A stretch of DNA of 44,120 bases from Flavobacteriales bacterium (GTDB lineage Bacteria > Bacteroidota > Bacteroidia > Flavobacteriales_F > PHOS-HE28): NCBI GenBank assembly GCA_020437805.1, contig JAGQVV010000001.1, positions 1-44,120 of the forward strand, in the 5' to 3' direction. The position numbers and the translations under genes are program-made. Below, in pieces: positions 3,019 to 15,925 of the stretch; positions within the stretch are counted from its first letter, which is position 1, and each line of letters opens with the position of its first letter. The notes beneath the pieces are model-generated. The model saw only the letters and a program-made list of their open reading frames with translations. It was not told where the DNA came from and did no database searches.

Positions 3019-3157
3019 ATTGGCCCTCACGTTGTGGTGGTAGGAGGGGCAACCAAGGGCCATGTTGCCCGTTCCTTTCTCAGGATCGGGACCCAGGTGC
3101 TTCCTTGGACGGCGATCGAGGGTCAGCAAGGCGTACCGGGATGGAAAAGAACACGGC

Positions 3158-4591
3158 ATGGGAACAATGATGGAACGAGGGCTTCGCATGTTGTCCTCTC
3201 AACGGGCATTTCAGGTGTTATTGGTGCTCAATGTCCTGATGGTCTTTTTCCTGATGTGGTCCACGCGTGGTGTGGTGCTCTCGGATACGTGGTCCTATGT
3301 GGGGCTGGCCGAGGGGATCCTGCACGGTGAGTACAGTATGTGGTGGCCTTTGGAAGCGGATTATCCGGATACGTTCCGCACACCGGGGTTTCCGCTGATG
3401 ATAGCGGTGGTGATGTTCATTTTCGGTACGTGGAAGGCCATGGTCTGGGTGAATTTCGCGCTCTATTGGGTGGCGTTGTACCTCACCCTACGGACCATCG
3501 AACGATACGATGCAAGGCCCTTGACGCGGAATCTCTTCCTCTTGTTGCTGCTTCCCATGATCAACGTGCCTTACTACGTCAATCAGGTGTACACGGAGAT
3601 CCCGACGCTGGTGGCGATAAGCCTTTTCCTCTTTGTCGTTATGCGACCGGGGAAGTGGACCGTCGGTGGTTCGGCCGCACTCGGCCTGTTGCTCGGCTTC
3701 TTGTTCCAGTGCAAACCGGTGTTCCTGATCTTTCCACCGTTGTTCGCCGCTGCCGCCTATTTCTTGGACCGGAGGAACTTCGATGTTCGAGGGCAGCTGG
3801 TGATGCTCTTCACCTTCGTTGTGACCTTGTTACCATACGGCCTCTGGAACCTCCGGAACCACGGTGTCTTCAAAGTGACCCAGTTGGAAGGCGGGGGGGG
3901 GTACATGCACTTTTCGTATTGGTGTGGTAAGATGCCCGGTTATACGGATCACATCTCCTTGGGGAATTTCACCGGTGATGAGATCATCCGTTTCACCCCT
4001 GAGGACTCCGTTCCGAAGCACATCGCGGCCTTCGAAGAGGAATGGGCGGGGATCAAGGCGCGTATCGATCCGCTGCTTACGGCGAAGGATAGCCTGATGG
4101 TCGCATCTCGGGCGGACATGCCATACATCCCGCATATGACCTTCAACTCGGAGTTCACCTTGTTGCGTGAGAAGATCCTGCAAAGACAAGGGCTGGAGCA
4201 CATGTGGAACGACCCTTGGTACACCTTGGCCTACAAGTCGTACTCTGCGGTGAGGCTTTGGGTCATCGGTATCCAGCGGGGTGATTTCCAGCGGGCTTCG
4301 ATGGCCGGTAAGGTGCAAATGCTCTATGCTACCGGGATCACCGGGCTCGTGTTCCTGATGTCACTGTTCCTGACCCCACTGGCCTATAAGCGAGGGAGGC
4401 TTTCCTGGGCTGGCACATGGCCCTTGGTGTTCGCCATGGTCTACGTGGGCTTCTTCCACCTCCCGTTCACCATACAAGCCCGCTATACGACTTGTGTGCG
4501 CTTTGCCATGCTGGCGTTATTGGCCATGGCTATCGTGGGTCTGATCCAAGGACGGGCCACGACGGACAGGGTCGATGCCAAGCGGCCTTGA
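3158..4591 (+). CDS. GT39/PMT-like multispan glycosyltransferase
   Basis: About 477 residues with some ten hydrophobic helices. The first extracytoplasmic loop has an acidic motif (LSDTWSYVGLAEG, about residues 30-45) followed by FRTPGFPL. This pattern is typical of GT-C enzymes of the ArnT/PMT/GT39 type, which use polyprenyl-phosphate sugars and act on the periplasmic side. The GtrB-like enzyme at 923 could supply such a donor. The frame is open to 3062, but the upstream part is not hydrophobic or conserved in look; ATGs at 3158, 3167 and 3170 are all plausible. Nine consecutive G bases at 3893-3901 encode a glycine run and could slip (see findings). Family call moderately sure, acceptor unknown. 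Confidence 0.75.
   Translation: MGTMMERGLRMLSSQRAFQVLLVLNVLMVFFLMWSTRGVVLSDTWSYVGLAEGILHGEYSMWWPLEADYPDTFRTPGFPLMIAVVMFIFGTWKAMVWVNFALYWVALYLTLRTIERYDARPLTRNLFLLLLLPMINVPYYVNQVYTEIPTLVAISLFLFVVMRPGKWTVGGSAALGLLLGFLFQCKPVFLIFPPLFAAAAYFLDRRNFDVRGQLVMLFTFVVTLLPYGLWNLRNHGVFKVTQLEGGGGYMHFSYWCGKMPGYTDHISLGNFTGDEIIRFTPEDSVPKHIAAFEEEWAGIKARIDPLLTAKDSLMVASRADMPYIPHMTFNSEFTLLREKILQRQGLEHMWNDPWYTLAYKSYSAVRLWVIGIQRGDFQRASMAGKVQMLYATGITGLVFLMSLFLTPLAYKRGRLSWAGTWPLVFAMVYVGFFHLPFTIQARYTTCVRFAMLALLAMAIVGLIQGRATTDRVDAKRP
3893..3901 (+). repeat. Homopolymeric G9 tract inside the GT39-like gene
   Basis: Nine consecutive G bases lie in the reading frame of the multispan glycosyltransferase and encode part of a GGGG run. 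One extra G leads to a TAA within about 13 codons. Loss of one G keeps a shifted frame open for about 65 codons before a stop. Such tracts are known slippage sites in phase-variable surface-glycan genes of other bacteria; here that role is only inferred. Confidence 0.6.
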
Positions 4592-4679: not shown

Positions 4680-6182
4680 ATGATCCCTTTGTTCTATATG
4701 CACTACCATGGTGATGTATCCATCGCCTATTGGGAGTATACCCTAGCGGTGGTGTACATCGTGGTGCTTTACTTGAATTTCGCCCGGAAGAAGAACCTGA
4801 TGATCAAGAAGGCCCCGGAATACAAGTATTACCTCTGGGGCTTCCTTGCCAAGATCTTCGCCGGTCTCGTCTTCAGCCTCATCTATTTCTATTACTACGA
4901 GGGTGGGGATACCACGGCGTTCTTCTATTCCGCAGTGGCGATGCGGAATATGGCGGTCACCGAACCGCTGGAGTACCTCTCGCAGATGTTCGGGGACAAT
5001 ACCATGGAAGCGTGGTCCAGGTACACGTTGGACACGGCGCGCCCCTATCAATATGTCTTTCTGGACGATCGCACGTTCGTGGTGCTGCAAGTGACCAGTA
5101 TACTGGCGATCCTGACCTTCAAGAGCTATCTCATCACAACGCTCATCATCGCCAGCATCTCCTTCTACGGGATCTGGGCATGCTACCGAACGTTCGTGAG
5201 CTACTATCCCCAATTGATGGACAAACTGGCGATCGCCTGCCTGTTCATGCCCTCTGCGGTGTTCTGGGGCTCGGCCATCCTCAAGGACACCTTCAGTTTC
5301 AGCGCGGTCTGCTTCTGGGTCCATGCGGTGGACGAGATCTTCTACAAGCGAAGAAAGGTGTTCAATAAGAGCGTCGTGCTTGTGCTCAGCGCCTTCATCA
5401 TGCTCATGGTGAAACCTTACATCTTCATGGTGATGTTCCCGGCCACGTTGCTTTGGTTGCTGTACTTCCGTGTGGTCAGGATCCGGAACATGATGGTGAA
5501 GTTCGTTCTGGTCCCCTTGGCCGGTGTATCGCTTGTGGCGTTGTCCATATTCGTGCTGACAAGGATGGAGGACATGCTCGACAAGTTCGCGTTGGATGGT
5601 GCGTTGGAAACGATCCAAACAACCCAGCAGGATATGGTGCGAACGGAGTCCTACGGGTCGAACTCCTTCGATGTCGGTGAATTCGATGGTACCTGGTTGA
5701 GCGTACTCTCCAAATTCCCGGTGGCCACCAACGCAGCCCTTTTCCGTCCTTATCTGTGGGAATCGCGAACGGCGGTGATCATGATGAGCGGGTTGGAGAA
5801 CTTCTGGGTGCTTGGGCTATCGGTCTATGCGCTGTTCAGGGCGGGGCCACGCTTCTTCCTTCGCAGTCTGGTCGGTGTGCCGCTCCTGCTCATGTCCATG
5901 ACCTTTGCGCTCTTGTTCGCCTTCACGGTAGGGGTCACCACCCCGAACTTCGGGGCCTTGGTCCGGTTCAAGATCCCAATGATCCCGTTCTACATCAGTT
6001 CCCTGTACATCATCATCTACCTCGCCAAGCTGAAGCGAAAGCGGGAGAACCAAGGGTTGAGGTTCACGTTGGACGACCTGCGCATGGGAACGGCTCATTT
6101 GGAGGATGATACGACCGTCCGAAAGAAGAAGTATGCGGCGGGGCGGGCGGCGGCACGCGGGAGCGGTCTTCAGCCTGCTTAG
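4680..6182 (+). CDS. Multispan membrane protein of the glycan locus, possible polymerase or ligase
   Basis: A 500-residue protein with about ten or more hydrophobic helices and a basic, probably cytoplasmic tail (KRKREN, RKKKYAAGRAAARG). I do not recognise a catalytic signature. Features that stand out are a charged extracytoplasmic segment after helix 2 (YYYEGGDTTAFFYS), the FMPSAVFWGSAILKDTFSFS segment near residue 200 and a large soluble loop around 300-360. Its length, topology and position among glycosyltransferases fit a Wzy-type polymerase or O-antigen ligase, which are known for poor sequence conservation. That assignment is an inference from context only. A promoter-like element at 4637 lies just upstream. 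Confidence 0.72.
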   Translation: MIPLFYMHYHGDVSIAYWEYTLAVVYIVVLYLNFARKKNLMIKKAPEYKYYLWGFLAKIFAGLVFSLIYFYYYEGGDTTAFFYSAVAMRNMAVTEPLEYLSQMFGDNTMEAWSRYTLDTARPYQYVFLDDRTFVVLQVTSILAILTFKSYLITTLIIASISFYGIWACYRTFVSYYPQLMDKLAIACLFMPSAVFWGSAILKDTFSFSAVCFWVHAVDEIFYKRRKVFNKSVVLVLSAFIMLMVKPYIFMVMFPATLLWLLYFRVVRIRNMMVKFVLVPLAGVSLVALSIFVLTRMEDMLDKFALDGALETIQTTQQDMVRTESYGSNSFDVGEFDGTWLSVLSKFPVATNAALFRPYLWESRTAVIMMSGLENFWVLGLSVYALFRAGPRFFLRSLVGVPLLLMSMTFALLFAFTVGVTTPNFGALVRFKIPMIPFYISSLYIIIYLAKLKRKRENQGLRFTLDDLRMGTAHLEDDTTVRKKKYAAGRAAARGSGLQPA

Positions 6183-9219: not shown

Positions 9220-10083
9220 TCAGGAACGCATCAAGCGGCGCATCAGGATCCGAGGGTCGCGAAGGATGGATCGGATCAGGTACGGGACCGCCTTCAGTGG
9301 TGCACCCGCGTTCTTCCAGTAGCTGCCTCCGATGGACCAATAGGCATTGCTCCATACCTCACGGGCCATCGCCGGGTCGTTCAGCAGACCCATGTCCACG
9401 GCCTTGTGCATCAATCGCATATGATCCGCAGCGTACAGGTCCACGTTCCTGCTCATACTGTCGCTCAACACGCGGTAGCGGTTCAAGGCCTTGGGCAGGT
9501 GTGCGTAGCGGAAGTGTTGTGCCATGAACAAGGAAAAGTGCTGGTCGGCGGCGTTGGATAGGTCCGTATCGAAACGGAAACCTACTTCGAAACAAGCACG
9601 TTTCAGCAAGGCGTTACTGCAGGATGCTGGAACCGCAGGTTCGATCCCGAGCAATACGGTCCGGACCACATCCCCGTCCGTTCCTTTCAGCACCAGTCCC
9701 TTCGAGTTCATGTTCGGATCACAGAGCAGAAGGTCCCCGAACACCCAGTCCACACCATCGTTCCGCAGCACATCATACTTCTCCGCGAGGTTCGTGGGTT
9801 CCATGGCGTCATCGGCATCCAAGAAGCCTATACACGCACCTTGGGCAAGGTCCAATCCGGTGTTCCGCGCACTGCATACCCCGCCGTTCGGCTTGTCCAC
9901 GACGCGGATCCGGTCGTCTTCGAAGGCGCGTGCGACGCTGGACGTGTCATCGGACGAACCATCGTTCACGATGATGAGCTCCCATTCGGTCAATGTCTGG
10001 GCCTGCACCGAGCGAACAGCATCACCCAACCACCGCGCGGCGTTGTATGCAGGAATGATGACCGAGACCGTGGGTTCGGTCAT
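9220..10083 (-). CDS. GT2 family glycosyltransferase
   Basis: A 287-residue GT-A protein. It starts with VSVIIPAYNAARWL, then has VNDGSSDDT near residue 40, a PNGGVCSARNTGL segment near 65-77 and the metal-binding FLDADDAM near 88-95. It has no membrane helices, unlike the GT2 at 923, so it is probably a soluble or peripheral enzyme adding one sugar to the growing glycan. Its ATG overlaps the TGA of the flippase-GT4 fusion by 4 bases, so it is the last gene of the minus-strand run that begins at 15925. Confidence 0.88.
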   Translation of the reverse strand: MTEPTVSVIIPAYNAARWLGDAVRSVQAQTLTEWELIIVNDGSSDDTSSVARAFEDDRIRVVDKPNGGVCSARNTGLDLAQGACIGFLDADDAMEPTNLAEKYDVLRNDGVDWVFGDLLLCDPNMNSKGLVLKGTDGDVVRTVLLGIEPAVPASCSNALLKRACFEVGFRFDTDLSNAADQHFSLFMAQHFRYAHLPKALNRYRVLSDSMSRNVDLYAADHMRLMHKAVDMGLLNDPAMAREVWSNAYWSIGGSYWKNAGAPLKAVPYLIRSILRDPRILMRRLMRS

Positions 10084-12623
10084 GCTGACTTGGATAGCGG
10101 GGAGACTTGCACGGAAGCGTATACCTCCACGATCCGTTGGCTGATGGCATCTGCCGAGAAACGCGGTGCGGCCTCGATGGCGACCTTGTTCCGGTCGAAA
10201 TGATCGGGGTTTTCGATGCAGGCGTTCAAAGCCTCGGCCAATGCCCGCGGATCATCAGGAGGGACCAGGATCCCATTGGATCCGTCCACCAACTCGGGTA
10301 CCCCGTTCACGTTCATGGAAACAACCGGTGTCCCACAGCACAGGCTTTCGATCACCACGCAAGGGAGGTTATCCGCGTGTGTGGGCAACACGAAGAGGTG
10401 GCACTGCCGCATCATTTCCGCCATGTCCGCCTTGTTCATGTATCCGGGGAATCGGATGTCCACATGAGGCAGTTCCGCGGCACAGCGTTCTTGGATCGTG
10501 GCGTAATCCACACCGTATCCGACCCAATCCACGCGACAGGACCTCAACCGGTCCGTGGGGATCAAGGCCAAGGCCCGGATGAAGACATCATGGTCCTTCG
10601 GAGGTCTCCATACGGCAGCGAGCATCATACGGAAAGGCTCTGCTTCAGGTGGTGGTCCGGGTCGGAAGACATCCGCAGCAACATTGTGGACGACCACCAG
10701 CTTCTCCTCCGGCACACCGTAATCCTCGTGTAGAACATGGGCAAGGTCCCGGGACACCGGCATCACGAGCTTGATCTGCGGATGTGTGAACCACCGACGG
10801 ATGGCCTTCCGCTCCTGCTCCTGCGCCGCGGGTGGCAGCGATAGGATACCCAGATGATAGTACGAATTGTGTTCGGTAAGGACCACCGGCAGGGACAACC
10901 GGGAGGCCACGTTCAAGACATGGGAGGTGACTTCAGTACGAACATGGATGTGTATCAACGAGAATGGATCCTCCCGATGCCATTCGGCGATCAGGCGGTC
11001 GTAACAGCGACGCACAAGTCGATCGGCCAGTTCGAACCTGCGCAGTGGTGTGAGGATGCTTACGCGATGGACCAATAGGCCATCCTCCATCCCGCTCACG
11101 ATCCGCGTCGTGGGCCAGGGTACACGGCCTTTGATGACCTGTACATACAACACCTCCAGCCTTTGTTGCCGGGCAATGGCCTGGATATGCTCCTTGATGA
11201 ACACACCATTGATGTCCGTACCGGTGGGCCACCAGCCCACCACGCACAGTACCCGTTCCGTGAGCCGTGGAACAGTGACGGGTGATGACAAACGCACGGG
11301 AGGTGCACCAAGCAGGATCGTTCTGAAACGCCCGATATCCGAGCGTCGGATCAAGAACAGGTCGTACACCGGAATACCCATATGGAACCTGATCGTGAAG
11401 AGCATGGTGAGTATGATCACCAAATACACGATGGAAGTGGCCACTGCGGCACCTTCGATCCCCCAGATGGGCACCATGATGAGATCCAGGACGATCGTGA
11501 GCACGGCTGCTAAGGATATGGCATAGAGGTTCACCCGCTGTAGACCGCCGTGTACGATCAATGGCGCCAGGAGTTTCGAGGAACTGCTGAGAACGATACC
11601 CGGCAACAGCAGATACAATGCGGGTACCGATGCGCTGAACACCTCGCCGAAGAGCAATGGTAGCATCCACTTCGCGGTAATGGCGACCAGTATCGCAAGT
11701 CCCAGCACGGCCGTGAAATTCAAACGGGCGACCGTCTTGAACCGTTCCAACATCTCATCTTTGAGTTGGCCGAACAAATAGGGCTGTACCACCCGGGAAA
11801 AGGGGTCTGGAATGTAGAATAGCAACTGTGCAACACCCACGGCCACGGTGTAGATGCCCAGTTCTGATGCCCCCAACTTGTCCCCGATCACCCATATATC
11901 GAAGCGGTAATTGATCAAATTGATCAGGTTGGTGAGGTGGCCCACCAAGGAGAAAGCAAGGATCGGTTTCAGGATGGACCAGGTCCAGGTCGGTATGGGT
12001 GTAATACCGACATCGGTGACGTAGATCACCACCCAGATCATGGTCTGAATGGTCATGGCCGAGGCGGATACGGCAAGAACGGTCGGTAGCACGGTCGAGG
12101 CCTCCATACCGTCACGAACGAAGTAAAGGATGAAGAACGCCACAGCGCTCAAGCCCGCATTCAGGATCCCCATCCAGTTCAGCGTCTTGAACCTTTTCAT
12201 TCCCAGCAGGAATGCGGATACGGCGGTGTTCACCAAGCTCAGGATGATGCTCAGGTATACATAGCCCCAGTAAAGCCATTGGGTCCTCCCACGGGGCATC
12301 AACAATTCGGTCAGTCGGTCGGATCCGGATACGGCAAGGAGCATCAGGGGTACCACGACGATGTCCAGCAGTAACATGGTCGACGCGGTTCCAACAATGC
12401 TCTTGGTCGGGCCTCCGGCCTTGGATGTGAAGAAGGTGATGCCGAAGCCGACGTTGAAGCTCACGAGCATGGCGAGCAAGGCGACCTGGTTCGTCAACAA
12501 GGCATATTCACCTCGGCCCACATCGCCCAGCAAACGCGTTATCAGTGTGCTGGAAACGAAGTACAGGAGCAGGGTGGGCGCCTGCGTAAGGAAGGTGTAG
12601 AATATGCTGCGCTTGAAGCTCAA
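10080..12623 (-). CDS. Fusion protein: Wzx-type polysaccharide flippase plus GT4 glycosyltransferase
   Basis: About 847 residues in one uninterrupted frame. Residues 1 to about 430 form a MATE/Wzx-like transporter with around 12-14 hydrophobic helices; its N-terminal SSTLITRLLG...GRGEY segment is typical for polysaccharide flippases. From about residue 455 to 840 a complete GT4 domain follows: the GWWPTGTDINGVFIKEHIQ start, LTEHNSYY, VVHNV, and the donor-site PTHADNLPCVVIE with its ESLCCGTPVV end. The two halves normally occur as separate proteins. No ATG lies between 12815 and the first helix; a TTG at 12623 sits exactly where homologous flippases start and is taken as start. The GT domain would face the cytoplasm. 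Confidence 0.82.
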   Translation of the reverse strand: MSFKRSIFYTFLTQAPTLLLYFVSSTLITRLLGDVGRGEYALLTNQVALLAMLVSFNVGFGITFFTSKAGGPTKSIVGTASTMLLLDIVVVPLMLLAVSGSDRLTELLMPRGRTQWLYWGYVYLSIILSLVNTAVSAFLLGMKRFKTLNWMGILNAGLSAVAFFILYFVRDGMEASTVLPTVLAVSASAMTIQTMIWVVIYVTDVGITPIPTWTWSILKPILAFSLVGHLTNLINLINYRFDIWVIGDKLGASELGIYTVAVGVAQLLFYIPDPFSRVVQPYLFGQLKDEMLERFKTVARLNFTAVLGLAILVAITAKWMLPLLFGEVFSASVPALYLLLPGIVLSSSSKLLAPLIVHGGLQRVNLYAISLAAVLTIVLDLIMVPIWGIEGAAVATSIVYLVIILTMLFTIRFHMGIPVYDLFLIRRSDIGRFRTILLGAPPVRLSSPVTVPRLTERVLCVVGWWPTGTDINGVFIKEHIQAIARQQRLEVLYVQVIKGRVPWPTTRIVSGMEDGLLVHRVSILTPLRRFELADRLVRRCYDRLIAEWHREDPFSLIHIHVRTEVTSHVLNVASRLSLPVVLTEHNSYYHLGILSLPPAAQEQERKAIRRWFTHPQIKLVMPVSRDLAHVLHEDYGVPEEKLVVVHNVAADVFRPGPPPEAEPFRMMLAAVWRPPKDHDVFIRALALIPTDRLRSCRVDWVGYGVDYATIQERCAAELPHVDIRFPGYMNKADMAEMMRQCHLFVLPTHADNLPCVVIESLCCGTPVVSMNVNGVPELVDGSNGILVPPDDPRALAEALNACIENPDHFDRNKVAIEAAPRFSADAISQRIVEVYASVQVSPLSKSA

Positions 12624-12738: not shown

Positions 12739-13887
12739 TCATATCGTGCGCTCGACCGCCGCCTGGTACTCCGCCATGTATCCGTCCCACATCCGATCGA
12801 ACGAGAACCGTGCAAGGGCGACCGCCTGCCCCGCTTGCCCTACGGCTTTGTGATCACCATCGAGAAGTGAAAGCACACCCCCGGCCAAGGCCGATCCGGT
12901 CCGCATGTTCACCAGTACGCCGCATGGACCATCCTTCATCACATCGGCGAAGCCGCCGGTACGGGTCGATACCACGGGGACCCCGGACATCATGGCCTCG
13001 GCGAAAACAAAGCCGAAGGGTTCATGGTCCGCGGCGTGCAGGTAGACGTCCATGGTCCTGTAGAGCGACGGCACATCGTCCCTGTCAACCCATCCCGTGA
13101 AAACCACATTCGCTTCCAAGCCAGCGTCCTTCACCCATTGTTCCACATCGGGACGCTGCGGACCAGAGCCACAGAATAGGAAACGGACCTTCGGGTAGTG
13201 CTGGACAATGACCTTGGCCGCGTCCACGATATGACGGTATCCTTTCCATTCGATGAACCGGGCCACGGTTCCAATGACCGGGTACGCGTCGTGCAGGCCG
13301 AAACGCGCCCTCAGTCGATCGCATGTCGCCTCATTCCTGGTGGTGAATCGTTCTGTCGGGATGCCATGATGGACAAGCCCCACCTTGGTGCGTGGAACTT
13401 GTTCCATTTCAGTGGTGAAAGTGCGTGTATCCTCTGAAACAGCGATGATGCGTGTGGCCAATCGTGCGGCAAGCCGGTCCAGGAACACCCAACGTGGTGC
13501 ATAGTTCCAATGGAAGCAGGAGTCTTGGCGGGTGAAGAGGCGCACCTTGATACGCGCCAGCCATGCCGCTACCATTCCGGGCAGGGTGTCGTCGAAAAGG
13601 TGACCGTGCACGATATCCGGCCGGTAGCGCATCATATGCCACCACATTTTGGGCACGGCCAGCAACATGCCTGTGGGGCGATGGCGGTCATCGTACTTGA
13701 TCCATTCACAATCGAAGCCATGGGAACGGATCTCATCCAACATGGCCGGCCGGGTGGGGAAAAGGATCAGAAAGCTGAAATGGACACCAGCAGCCTCCTC
13801 CGCGCGCTGCATGAACCAAGATAGGTAAGGAACACCATCGTTGTTGGCGAAGGTGTGCATGATATGGATGCCACGTTGTTCTGTCAT
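12739..13887 (-). CDS. Glycosyltransferase family 4
   Basis: A 382-residue GT-B protein. It has an N-terminal HTFANNDGVPYLSWFMQRA segment, the DIVHGHLFDDTLPG motif near residue 95, VSEDTRTF near 155 and the C-terminal donor domain with VIGTVARFIEWKG, FCGSGPQRPD and the late HAADHEPFGFVFAEAMMSGVPVV motif. The last contains the two glutamates (E-x7-E) used by GT4 enzymes for donor binding. Its ATG overlaps the stop of the upstream glycosyltransferase gene by 4 bases. It probably adds a sugar to the surface glycan; specificity cannot be read. Confidence 0.9.
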   Translation of the reverse strand: MTEQRGIHIMHTFANNDGVPYLSWFMQRAEEAAGVHFSFLILFPTRPAMLDEIRSHGFDCEWIKYDDRHRPTGMLLAVPKMWWHMMRYRPDIVHGHLFDDTLPGMVAAWLARIKVRLFTRQDSCFHWNYAPRWVFLDRLAARLATRIIAVSEDTRTFTTEMEQVPRTKVGLVHHGIPTERFTTRNEATCDRLRARFGLHDAYPVIGTVARFIEWKGYRHIVDAAKVIVQHYPKVRFLFCGSGPQRPDVEQWVKDAGLEANVVFTGWVDRDDVPSLYRTMDVYLHAADHEPFGFVFAEAMMSGVPVVSTRTGGFADVMKDGPCGVLVNMRTGSALAGGVLSLLDGDHKAVGQAGQAVALARFSFDRMWDGYMAEYQAAVERTI

Positions 13888-15023
13888 CCCCGCTGATCCA
13901 GGATTGCGTTGCTCGGGCCATCGCTCACACCATGGGTGGTCCCTTCCAAGAACTCTTCGATCCTTCGGAGGATCACTTCATAGGTCTTCGTCCGTGCATG
14001 TTCGATCCGGTCCGTTGCCAGGGATCTCGACTCTCCGTTCGCAAGAAAGTGGGCCAGATCGGTCAATAGCTCCTGTCGGTCGTTACGCATGTACAGCAGG
14101 TGCCCAATGGGGATGTATTCCGTGAAAATATTGCAGAACACGGGTTTTCCGAAGGCGAGGTATTGGAAGATCTTATGGTGGGAAATGTCGTTGCCGGGCC
14201 ATGTGAAGTCCATGGGGGAGATACAGAAGCGCGAAGCTGCGATGTACGCTTTGAGCTCCTTGAAAGGAAGCACCCCGAGGTAGTGGACATTACCGTGACG
14301 ACCGCCTTGGATCAGCCGCTCGGCCTCCTCCACACCGCGTAGGGCAAAGCGGCCGATGAGCAGGAAAGGGACCTCGGGATGTGCCTCCGTGATCTCCTTG
14401 AGCAGTCCGATATCCACACGCTTGTCCAGCGTACCGACATACAGGCCGAATTCGTGCTGTGGCATGGCTTGGAAAGGAGCTTCGAACTCCTCGGAGGAAA
14501 TGGCATGACTGATGGTGAGCAGCGGCTTACCATAATGCACGAGATCCTTGCTGATCTGTTCGGATATGGTCACGATCCGGTCCACGCGGTCGAAAACGTA
14601 GCGTTCGCCTCTGATCCGGCCATCGTACGCATCCACCGCGATGAAGAGCGACGTCCCGGCCCCAAGCAAAGTCGGTTCGTACAGTCTCGCTGGGTCGAAA
14701 GTGATGAACAGGTCAACCGGCCAACCGTCCGTCTTCAATCGCTGCCGGATGTCACGGGAGACCCAAGTGTTGTTCAACTCGAAGAGGCGATCGTTCAGGG
14801 AAGGGATCCGATTGGTATATCGGAGCACGCGCAAGGAAGGCGATATCGTCGTGTACCCGATCCTCGATCGCAGGAGATCCATAGGGGACCAGCGCCTTGG
14901 AGGATCGAGGAAGAGCACATTGTTGTGCTTCGAAAGTTCGTACGCGTAATTGTGTTTGGAGAACCAGATGTCCCCCCAGCCCTCATTGGATACGATGATG
15001 ATGTTCTTCCCGCGCAGTTCCAT
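13884..15023 (-). CDS. Glycosyltransferase (GT4/GT1-like)
   Basis: A 379-residue protein with GT-B organisation. The N-terminal part has IIIVSNEGWGDIWFSKHNYA, a pattern seen in capsule and O-antigen glycosyltransferases of Bacteroidota. The middle has VDRIVTISEQISKDL near residue 180. The C-terminal part has FGLYVGTLDKRVDIGLL, LLIGRF and FTWPGNDISHHKIFQYLAFGKPV, the last corresponding to the donor-binding loop. The classic E-x7-E is not evident, so catalysis may rely on other residues. It starts 11 bases after the FkbM methyltransferase and overlaps the next gene by 4 bases, so it is part of one operon. Confidence 0.82.
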   Translation of the reverse strand: MELRGKNIIIVSNEGWGDIWFSKHNYAYELSKHNNVLFLDPPRRWSPMDLLRSRIGYTTISPSLRVLRYTNRIPSLNDRLFELNNTWVSRDIRQRLKTDGWPVDLFITFDPARLYEPTLLGAGTSLFIAVDAYDGRIRGERYVFDRVDRIVTISEQISKDLVHYGKPLLTISHAISSEEFEAPFQAMPQHEFGLYVGTLDKRVDIGLLKEITEAHPEVPFLLIGRFALRGVEEAERLIQGGRHGNVHYLGVLPFKELKAYIAASRFCISPMDFTWPGNDISHHKIFQYLAFGKPVFCNIFTEYIPIGHLLYMRNDRQELLTDLAHFLANGESRSLATDRIEHARTKTYEVILRRIEEFLEGTTHGVSDGPSNAILDQRG

Positions 15024-15034
15024 TCAGCCGATGG

Positions 15035-15925
15035 TCATACCGGAAGTCCGATCCTGCGTGCCACGTCCGGCCGGCAAACCAGGAAGTTGAAATGGCCGCT
15101 TCGCGTCAATCGTTCCACTTGCGGGGGTGGCCAGGTCACATCATCGATGTTGAAGAAGAGGTAATCCAACCCTTCGATATGCTTCGATACGCGGTCCGCG
15201 ACCTCATCGGTGAGCAATTCGATGAGCATGGAAGGTCGGTCACGCCGAAGGATCTCGATGAAGCCTTGTAGCACCGCAGGTTCATGCGTCTCGACATCGA
15301 TCTTCAGGAGGTCGACCGTAGAGCATCCCACCTCGTTCAGAATGTCGGTCACGGTGCGGCAGGGTACCTCCACCGGGCGCAGTCGGCTACTGGTATTGTT
15401 CCATTCGGGGTCCAATGAGACGGAGAGCACATGCTCGCTATCGGGCATGTCGTATAGGGTGGCCGTGCCGGTACTATCGCTAACGGCGGCATATATGGCA
15501 TGGATCCCCTTGGCGTTGAGGTCGAAATTGGCCTTCATCTTCCGATGGATCCGTTCAACCACCTCTACCGCTACGATGGTCGCCGAGGGCCTTACGGTCT
15601 TGGCGATGAGTGCATAGACGCCCGTGTTCGCCCCGATGTCGAGGATCACGTTCGCGTCACGGCAAAGCAACACCCACAAGCGGAAGGAGATCTTCTCCCA
15701 CCCGTCCAGACCACGCCAGAACAACTCGTTCTCGATCATGTACCCATGATGCATGATCCGGAATTCACCATGGCCGGGAACCGGAACGGTCACGATCCCT
15801 TTGAAATGCAAATGGCGATAGATCGATCCCGGAAGGGTTACCACCGATCGGATAGCCTTGAAAATGGGCTGCTTGAACGGGATCGCTCCATAGATCCCTT
15901 TCGCGGCGCGCTTGAGCGTTGACAT
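15035..15925 (-). CDS. FkbM family methyltransferase
   Basis: A 296-residue protein with the FkbM signature: VILDIGANTGVYALIA near residues 93-107, a VEVVERIH strand-2 end, and the VDLLKIDVETHEPAVLQG motif near 205-222, which is diagnostic for this family. These enzymes O-methylate sugars or polyketides; here a surface-glycan sugar is the likely target. It is the first gene of the minus-strand glycan operon (15925 down to 9220) and is divergent from rdgB with about 100 bases between the starts. Confidence 0.9.
   Translation of the reverse strand: MSTLKRAAKGIYGAIPFKQPIFKAIRSVVTLPGSIYRHLHFKGIVTVPVPGHGEFRIMHHGYMIENELFWRGLDGWEKISFRLWVLLCRDANVILDIGANTGVYALIAKTVRPSATIVAVEVVERIHRKMKANFDLNAKGIHAIYAAVSDSTGTATLYDMPDSEHVLSVSLDPEWNNTSSRLRPVEVPCRTVTDILNEVGCSTVDLLKIDVETHEPAVLQGFIEILRRDRPSMLIELLTDEVADRVSKHIEGLDYLFFNIDDVTWPPPQVERLTRSGHFNFLVCRPDVARRIGLPV

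Follow-up and report, generated by a model that had tools for sequence, protein, structure and literature searches.

A probable lineage-specific fusion of a Wzx-type flippase and a GT4 glycosyltransferase in a Flavobacteriales genome

One open frame in a polysaccharide gene cluster appears to encode a Wzx-type flippase and a GT4 glycosyltransferase as a single chain. This raises the question of whether the two proteins are really joined in this organism and, if so, whether the joining controls which glycans are exported, as an initial annotation of the DNA proposed. The window (the whole stretch of 44,120 nucleotides that was analysed) comes from an uncultured Flavobacteriales MAG that is 85.6% complete and 5.1% contaminated, in 356 contigs. 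Both parts of the putative protein belong to well-known families; their lineage-specific joining is what is new here.

The interval originally assigned to the fusion, 10080-12623, stands, but its gene is read from the minus strand; many stops close the interval on the plus strand. On the minus strand, a single uninterrupted frame of 847 codons (847 aa) runs through both complete domains, within a stretch that is open from 12815 to 10080. Translation probably starts at TTG 12623: read from this codon, the protein (LSFKRSIFYTFLTQAPTLLL) lines up with the N-termini of relatives' stand-alone flippases, which begin with ATG, for example MSMKRGIFYTFLTQAPTLLM. The frame ends with the TGA at 10082-10080; this stop and the ATG of the GT2 glycosyltransferase gene that follows share bases (ATGA, 10083-10080). 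The features of the region, with the evidence for each, are:

9220-10083, minus strand: GT2 glycosyltransferase, the next gene after the fusion (Pfam; its orthologue is also a neighbour in relatives)
10080-12623, minus strand: fused ORF, 847 aa (open frame; TTG aligned to relatives' ATG)
10110-11255, minus strand: GT4/GT-B glycosyltransferase domain, residues 457-838 (PF13439, PF00534, PF13692; stand-alone orthologues; GT-B fold)
11256-11315, minus strand: linker, residues 437-456, predicted to be unstructured (AlphaFold2; relatives' flippase stops, at 435-449, fall in the linker region)
11316-12623, minus strand: flippase (Wzx/MOP) domain, residues 1-436, about 12 TM helices (PF13440, PF01943; stand-alone orthologues; Foldseek match to WzxE)
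12739-13887, minus strand: separate GT4 gene, upstream of the fusion (Pfam)
13884-15023, minus strand: GT-like gene with a weak Glyco_trans_1_2 match, upstream in the same run (Pfam)
15035-15925, minus strand: FkbM-type methyltransferase, the start of the minus-strand run (Pfam)

The run is thus read in the order FkbM methyltransferase, GT-like gene, GT4, fusion, GT2, and a facing run holds galE, a GT4 and membrane proteins. The flippase half therefore sits in a polysaccharide gene cluster (GT2, GT4, FkbM and galE neighbours).

A profile search of each half, a check suggested by the initial annotation, matched Pfam families above their curated cut-offs on both sides. PF13440 (Polysacc_synt_3; 45.5 bits, cut-off 23) and PF01943 (Polysacc_synt; 35.9 bits, cut-off 28.2) cover residues 4-334. 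Residues 1-436 align end to end, without large gaps, with stand-alone flippases of 441-447 aa, the identity being 53-59% to those with a neighbouring GT4, and the hydropathy of this half is compatible with about 12 TM segments. When the half was modelled on its own, its top Foldseek match was WzxE in the inward-facing form (9g9n, TM-score 0.74/0.80, E 5.9e-10), followed by MurJ and MATE proteins (MOP fold); the flippase profile matched the WzxE sequence weakly (E 0.0073). Judged by sequence and model, this half is a whole polysaccharide flippase of the Wzx/MOP superfamily, predicted to translocate repeat units. It resembles WzxE and other Wzx/MOP flippases in its fold, its Polysacc_synt Pfam families and its siting among glycosyltransferase genes. 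However, WzxE stands alone and ends at a stop of its own, whereas the window flippase carries an enzyme at its C-terminus.

By similar evidence, the second half is a whole GT-B/GT4 glycosyltransferase with predicted sugar transfer activity. Matches to PF13439 (Glyco_transf_4, 47.4 bits), PF00534 (Glycos_transf_1, 91.4 bits) and PF13692 (Glyco_trans_1_4, 92.4 bits) lie within residues 521-818, and residues 451-847 align, catalytic motifs included, with stand-alone GT4 proteins of about 400 aa; the stand-alone orthologues are 50-58% identical to the GT half. The motifs TEHNSYYHLG, WRPPKDHD and DNLPCVVIES are kept. The E/D-x7-E motif and the donor-binding Lys are intact, with (D/E)NLPCVV(I/L)ES and WRPPKD present in the window and most orthologues, and the K and D of WRPPKD are invariant across the GT4 alignment. 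AlphaFold2 modelled the GT-B domain with high confidence in the whole chain (pLDDT >90 over most of the GT), and the best Foldseek matches of the half were MshA, BshA, GlgA-type, HepE and similar GT-B enzymes. MshA, BshA, HepE/Alr3699 and PglA, retaining GT-B enzymes of family GT4, have in common with it the whole GT-B fold and the GT4 motifs, but they are stand-alone enzymes to which the GT half is only about 15-20% identical. Because the identity is so low, neither donor nor acceptor can be read from them, and any assignment of the sugar would be conjectural. Pfam, alignments, AlphaFold2 and Foldseek together bear out the original description of a complete flippase and a complete GT4 enzyme in one frame.

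Between the helical domain and the GT-B domain, the whole-chain model leaves residues 439-453 unstructured (pLDDT <50); its pTM is 0.54, and we gave the relative placement of the domains no weight. The junction is probably a flexible linker of roughly 20 residues, located at about 11256-11315 and hence inside the range of about 11250-11350 first given for it. That about 20 codons stay open is by itself no evidence of selection.

How is this gene pair arranged in relatives? Our genus sample comprised 45 genomes, 21 of which gave a strong match. All 19 other same-genus orthologues with a readable C-terminus have a flippase stop at residue 435-449. The initial annotation had held that two genes with a conserved stop in relatives would count against the fusion, and this is the state found in the genus; it means that the fusion is not a conserved device, and the fusion in this genome is not thereby refuted. 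The GT4 orthologue is the next, separate gene after the flippase in five genomes: G061, where the flippase TGA is followed by 66 nt and then the GT4 ATG in the same frame; G012 and G067, where the two genes overlap out of frame by 19 nt; G017, whose two genes overlap in GTGA provided that the GT4 starts at the first GTG; and G059, where the GT4 lies directly behind the flippase, out of frame. Three genomes have the GT4 beyond a methyltransferase, which is a gene product of 234-235 aa between flippase and GT4 in G011 and G031 and is fused to the GT4 in G060.

Nine same-genus flippase orthologues have no strong match to the window's GT4 in their genome. Where a window-type GT4 lies nearby, the flippase mostly shares 53-59% identity with that of the window; flippases without a strong GT4 match share 45-51%. 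The two genes thus seem to travel together, a tendency in keeping with a common repeat-unit structure and likewise with mere co-inheritance. The matching loci belong to Flavobacteriales, Bacteroidetes or Bacteroidota MAGs; the closest relative of the window flippase reaches no more than 59% identity, and trees did not resolve the window's closest partner.

The same fusion, which the initial annotation had suggested seeking in related genomes, was found nowhere else in the 45 genomes of the genus, where orthologous loci keep the genes separate. Because same-genus orthologues have a flippase stop, and a separate GT4 where one is present, the sequences indicate a young, lineage-specific fusion in one MAG. 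The class sample of 395 contained no other case. A first scan of 84,980 GTDB species genomes gave no match, a second scan of 84,980 gave 14 GT4 relatives with 0 fused to a flippase, and none of the papers that a literature search (open-licence PMC) turned up dealt with a flippase-GT fusion.

The premise that flippases and glycosyltransferases are normally separate agrees with two surveys of Bacteroidota flippase families, in which about 300 listed flippases (about 150 best matches each, partly the same genes; the counts are coarse, as the listings are confined to the best matches) included one other flippase-GT fusion. This was the one frame longer than 700 aa among the flippases listed, a flippase-GT61 protein of 894 aa in a single-contig genome (G400, L075:5061-7745, plus strand). 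It resembles the window protein in having a Wzx-type flippase and then a glycosyltransferase in one frame, but its flippase is of another branch and its enzyme is GT61 rather than GT4, which makes it an independent event. In two same-genus genomes that were checked, no gene next to the flippases matched its GT61 part. A 624-aa flippase frame in G609 was rejected as a fusion, having an extra N-terminal frame only, without a second domain.

Closer to the window, a profile survey with its flippase branch yielded 22 genomes in the class sample, two of which have a fused flippase: the window and G051, where a flippase of the same branch carries a C-terminal methyltransferase (685 aa; L045:7406-9463, plus strand). 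The fused protein of G060 joins a class I methyltransferase to a GT4 of the window's family (639 aa; L054:8009-9928, minus strand), directly behind a separate flippase. Both cases show a homologous flippase or GT4 fused to a neighbour gene in the same kind of cluster; unlike in the window, the partner is a methyltransferase, and neither chain holds both flippase and GT4. A GT4 of the window's branch is also joined to an N-acetyl sugar amidotransferase (WbuX, TIGR03573), both in a Bacteroidales MAG (L068:5998-8322, plus strand) and in G020 (L044:10090-12453, plus strand). As read from these genes, fusions recur around the flippase/GT4 pair in the forms methyltransferase-GT4, flippase-methyltransferase and GT4-amidotransferase.

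We favour, with a probability of about two in three, a real fusion, specific to this lineage, that joined two neighbouring genes of a Wzx-type cluster in frame and encodes a bifunctional, membrane-tethered protein. This is because the two genes also neighbour each other in relatives, whether with a methyltransferase between them, adjacent, 66 nt apart in the same frame or overlapping, and because fusions recur at these gene boundaries (G060, G051), in addition to the unrelated G400. The fusion would have arisen when the flippase gene lost its stop and a short spacer before the GT4 gene; alternatively, it may have arisen by deletion of an ancestral methyltransferase gene like the one that separates the two in G031 and G011.

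The C-terminus of MOP flippases is usually cytosolic, on the side where GT4 enzymes work, and by analogy we take that of the flippase in the fusion to be cytosolic as well. We infer that the full-length protein is made and that both halves are active. In the resulting single membrane protein, a short flexible linker at the cytosolic C-terminus of the flippase would hold an active GT4. At the inner leaflet this enzyme would add one sugar to the repeat unit, which is linked to undecaprenyl-PP, and the flippase half would move repeat units to the periplasm. An otherwise peripheral GT would in this way be tethered to the membrane. Enzyme and membrane exporter are probably held together at a fixed 1:1 stoichiometry, and any benefit of tethering and fixed ratio is probably small.

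While a real fused gene could still work as two proteins, with internal initiation at GTG443 or TTG445 or proteolysis of the linker yielding free GT alongside flippase-GT, we consider this unlikely. The linker is predicted to be unstructured, and the in-frame GTG 11297 and TTG 11291 stand at about the distance of the relatives' GT start, but the linker contains neither a stop nor an ATG, and a ribosome that has completed the flippase would therefore continue into the GT.

An assembly error near the junction had been named as the other threat to the fusion, and a frameshift can be set aside: flippase similarity continues in frame to about residue 436, the stops of frame +1 flank the junction at 11353 and 11098 with none between, and the next stop of frame +2 is at 10935, so a single indel near the junction cannot yield a flippase end like that of relatives. 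A substitution or collapse error is, in our judgement, unlikely. The real population would then have two genes, the fused form being a minority allele or the MAG having lost the stop through a base error or collapse of a short intergenic stretch, as is conceivable in a fragmented MAG and would agree with the stop in 19/19 readable orthologues. The codons of R426, S428, R434, L445, S446, S447 and E456 are each one substitution from a stop. With a lost stop no later than 434, the GT could begin at GTG443 or TTG445, whereas a stop lost at S446, S447 or E456 leaves no ATG, GTG or TTG before the GT's first strand. Moreover, no single indel restores two genes, and an erroneous substitution would have to hit one of a few sites, which is a priori less common than a real fusion (compare G060 and G051). 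As the mutational route to the fusion, one-base stop loss at S447 (TCA versus the relatives' TGA in a gapped register) was considered but not adopted: in the ungapped alignment the stop falls at residue 444, and the loss would also leave the GT without a start codon.

If the genuine fusion is accepted, could it serve export? One could speculate that the tethered GT4 completes the repeat unit at the flippase's mouth and feeds export, the independent fusions marking a repeat-unit finishing complex at the C-terminus; we regard this as very doubtful. Hardly probable at all is a stricter version, in which the GT adds the last sugar and hands the finished unit to the flippase, so that only complete units are exported. 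Wzx can indeed prefer units with the correct terminal sugar (PMC6436433), and a terminal GT in Rhizobium has possible but ambiguous two-hybrid contacts with Wzx/Wzy proteins (PMC7589315). However, Wzx proteins that carry no fused enzyme can already distinguish terminal residues, and data from the overexpression of Wzx imply that an obligatory complex is unnecessary (PMC6436433); in Rhizobium, loss of the terminal sugar does not block flipping (PMC7589315). The nine same-genus flippase orthologues without a strong match to the GT4 also speak against it, and the GT's position in the pathway is not fixed by sequence.

A useful comparison is with the Mur enzymes, where MurE-MurF, MurG-MurC and MraY-MurG fusions occur in some lineages only (PMC6420597). 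There too, adjacent genes of a lipid-linked glycan pathway are joined in one polypeptide in some lineages; unlike in the window, no flippase is among the fused Mur enzymes listed. Such fusions do not require consecutive steps (MurG/MurC, MurC/Ddl; PMC6420597). Given the orthologues without a strong GT4 match and the discrimination by unfused Wzx (PMC6436433), the idea that only the finished unit is flipped is unsupported; of the proposal that the fusion tethers the last glycosylation step to export, the tethering is probable and the last step unsupported. The fusion itself seems to be real, though an oddity of one lineage; as a form of export control it has no support so far.

One lineage-specific fusion in one MAG is, alone, a modest finding; it would be weightier if the fused protein were made and coupled. 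If made and active, it would be a naturally occurring construct with which to test for docking of glycosyltransferases on Wzx flippases, which has so far been inferred from ambiguous two-hybrid data. The flippase, methyltransferase and GT4 fusions of related clusters suggest that proximity at the flippase's cytosolic C-terminus is tolerated, and perhaps used.

Two other parts of the window deserve mention. Large membrane-protein-like ORFs at 3062-4591 and 4680-6182, both on the plus strand, had no match in a Pfam search (E up to 1); their orthologues recur in relatives' clusters, and they may encode a GT-C enzyme and a Wzy-type polymerase. The GT-like gene at 13884-15023 is a single-domain copy, and among its relatives are tandem double-domain proteins of 755-840 aa encoded just upstream of the flippase (L034:11427-13727, minus strand; L033:5454-7721, plus strand; L032:4280-6619, plus strand; L052:10407-12929, minus strand).
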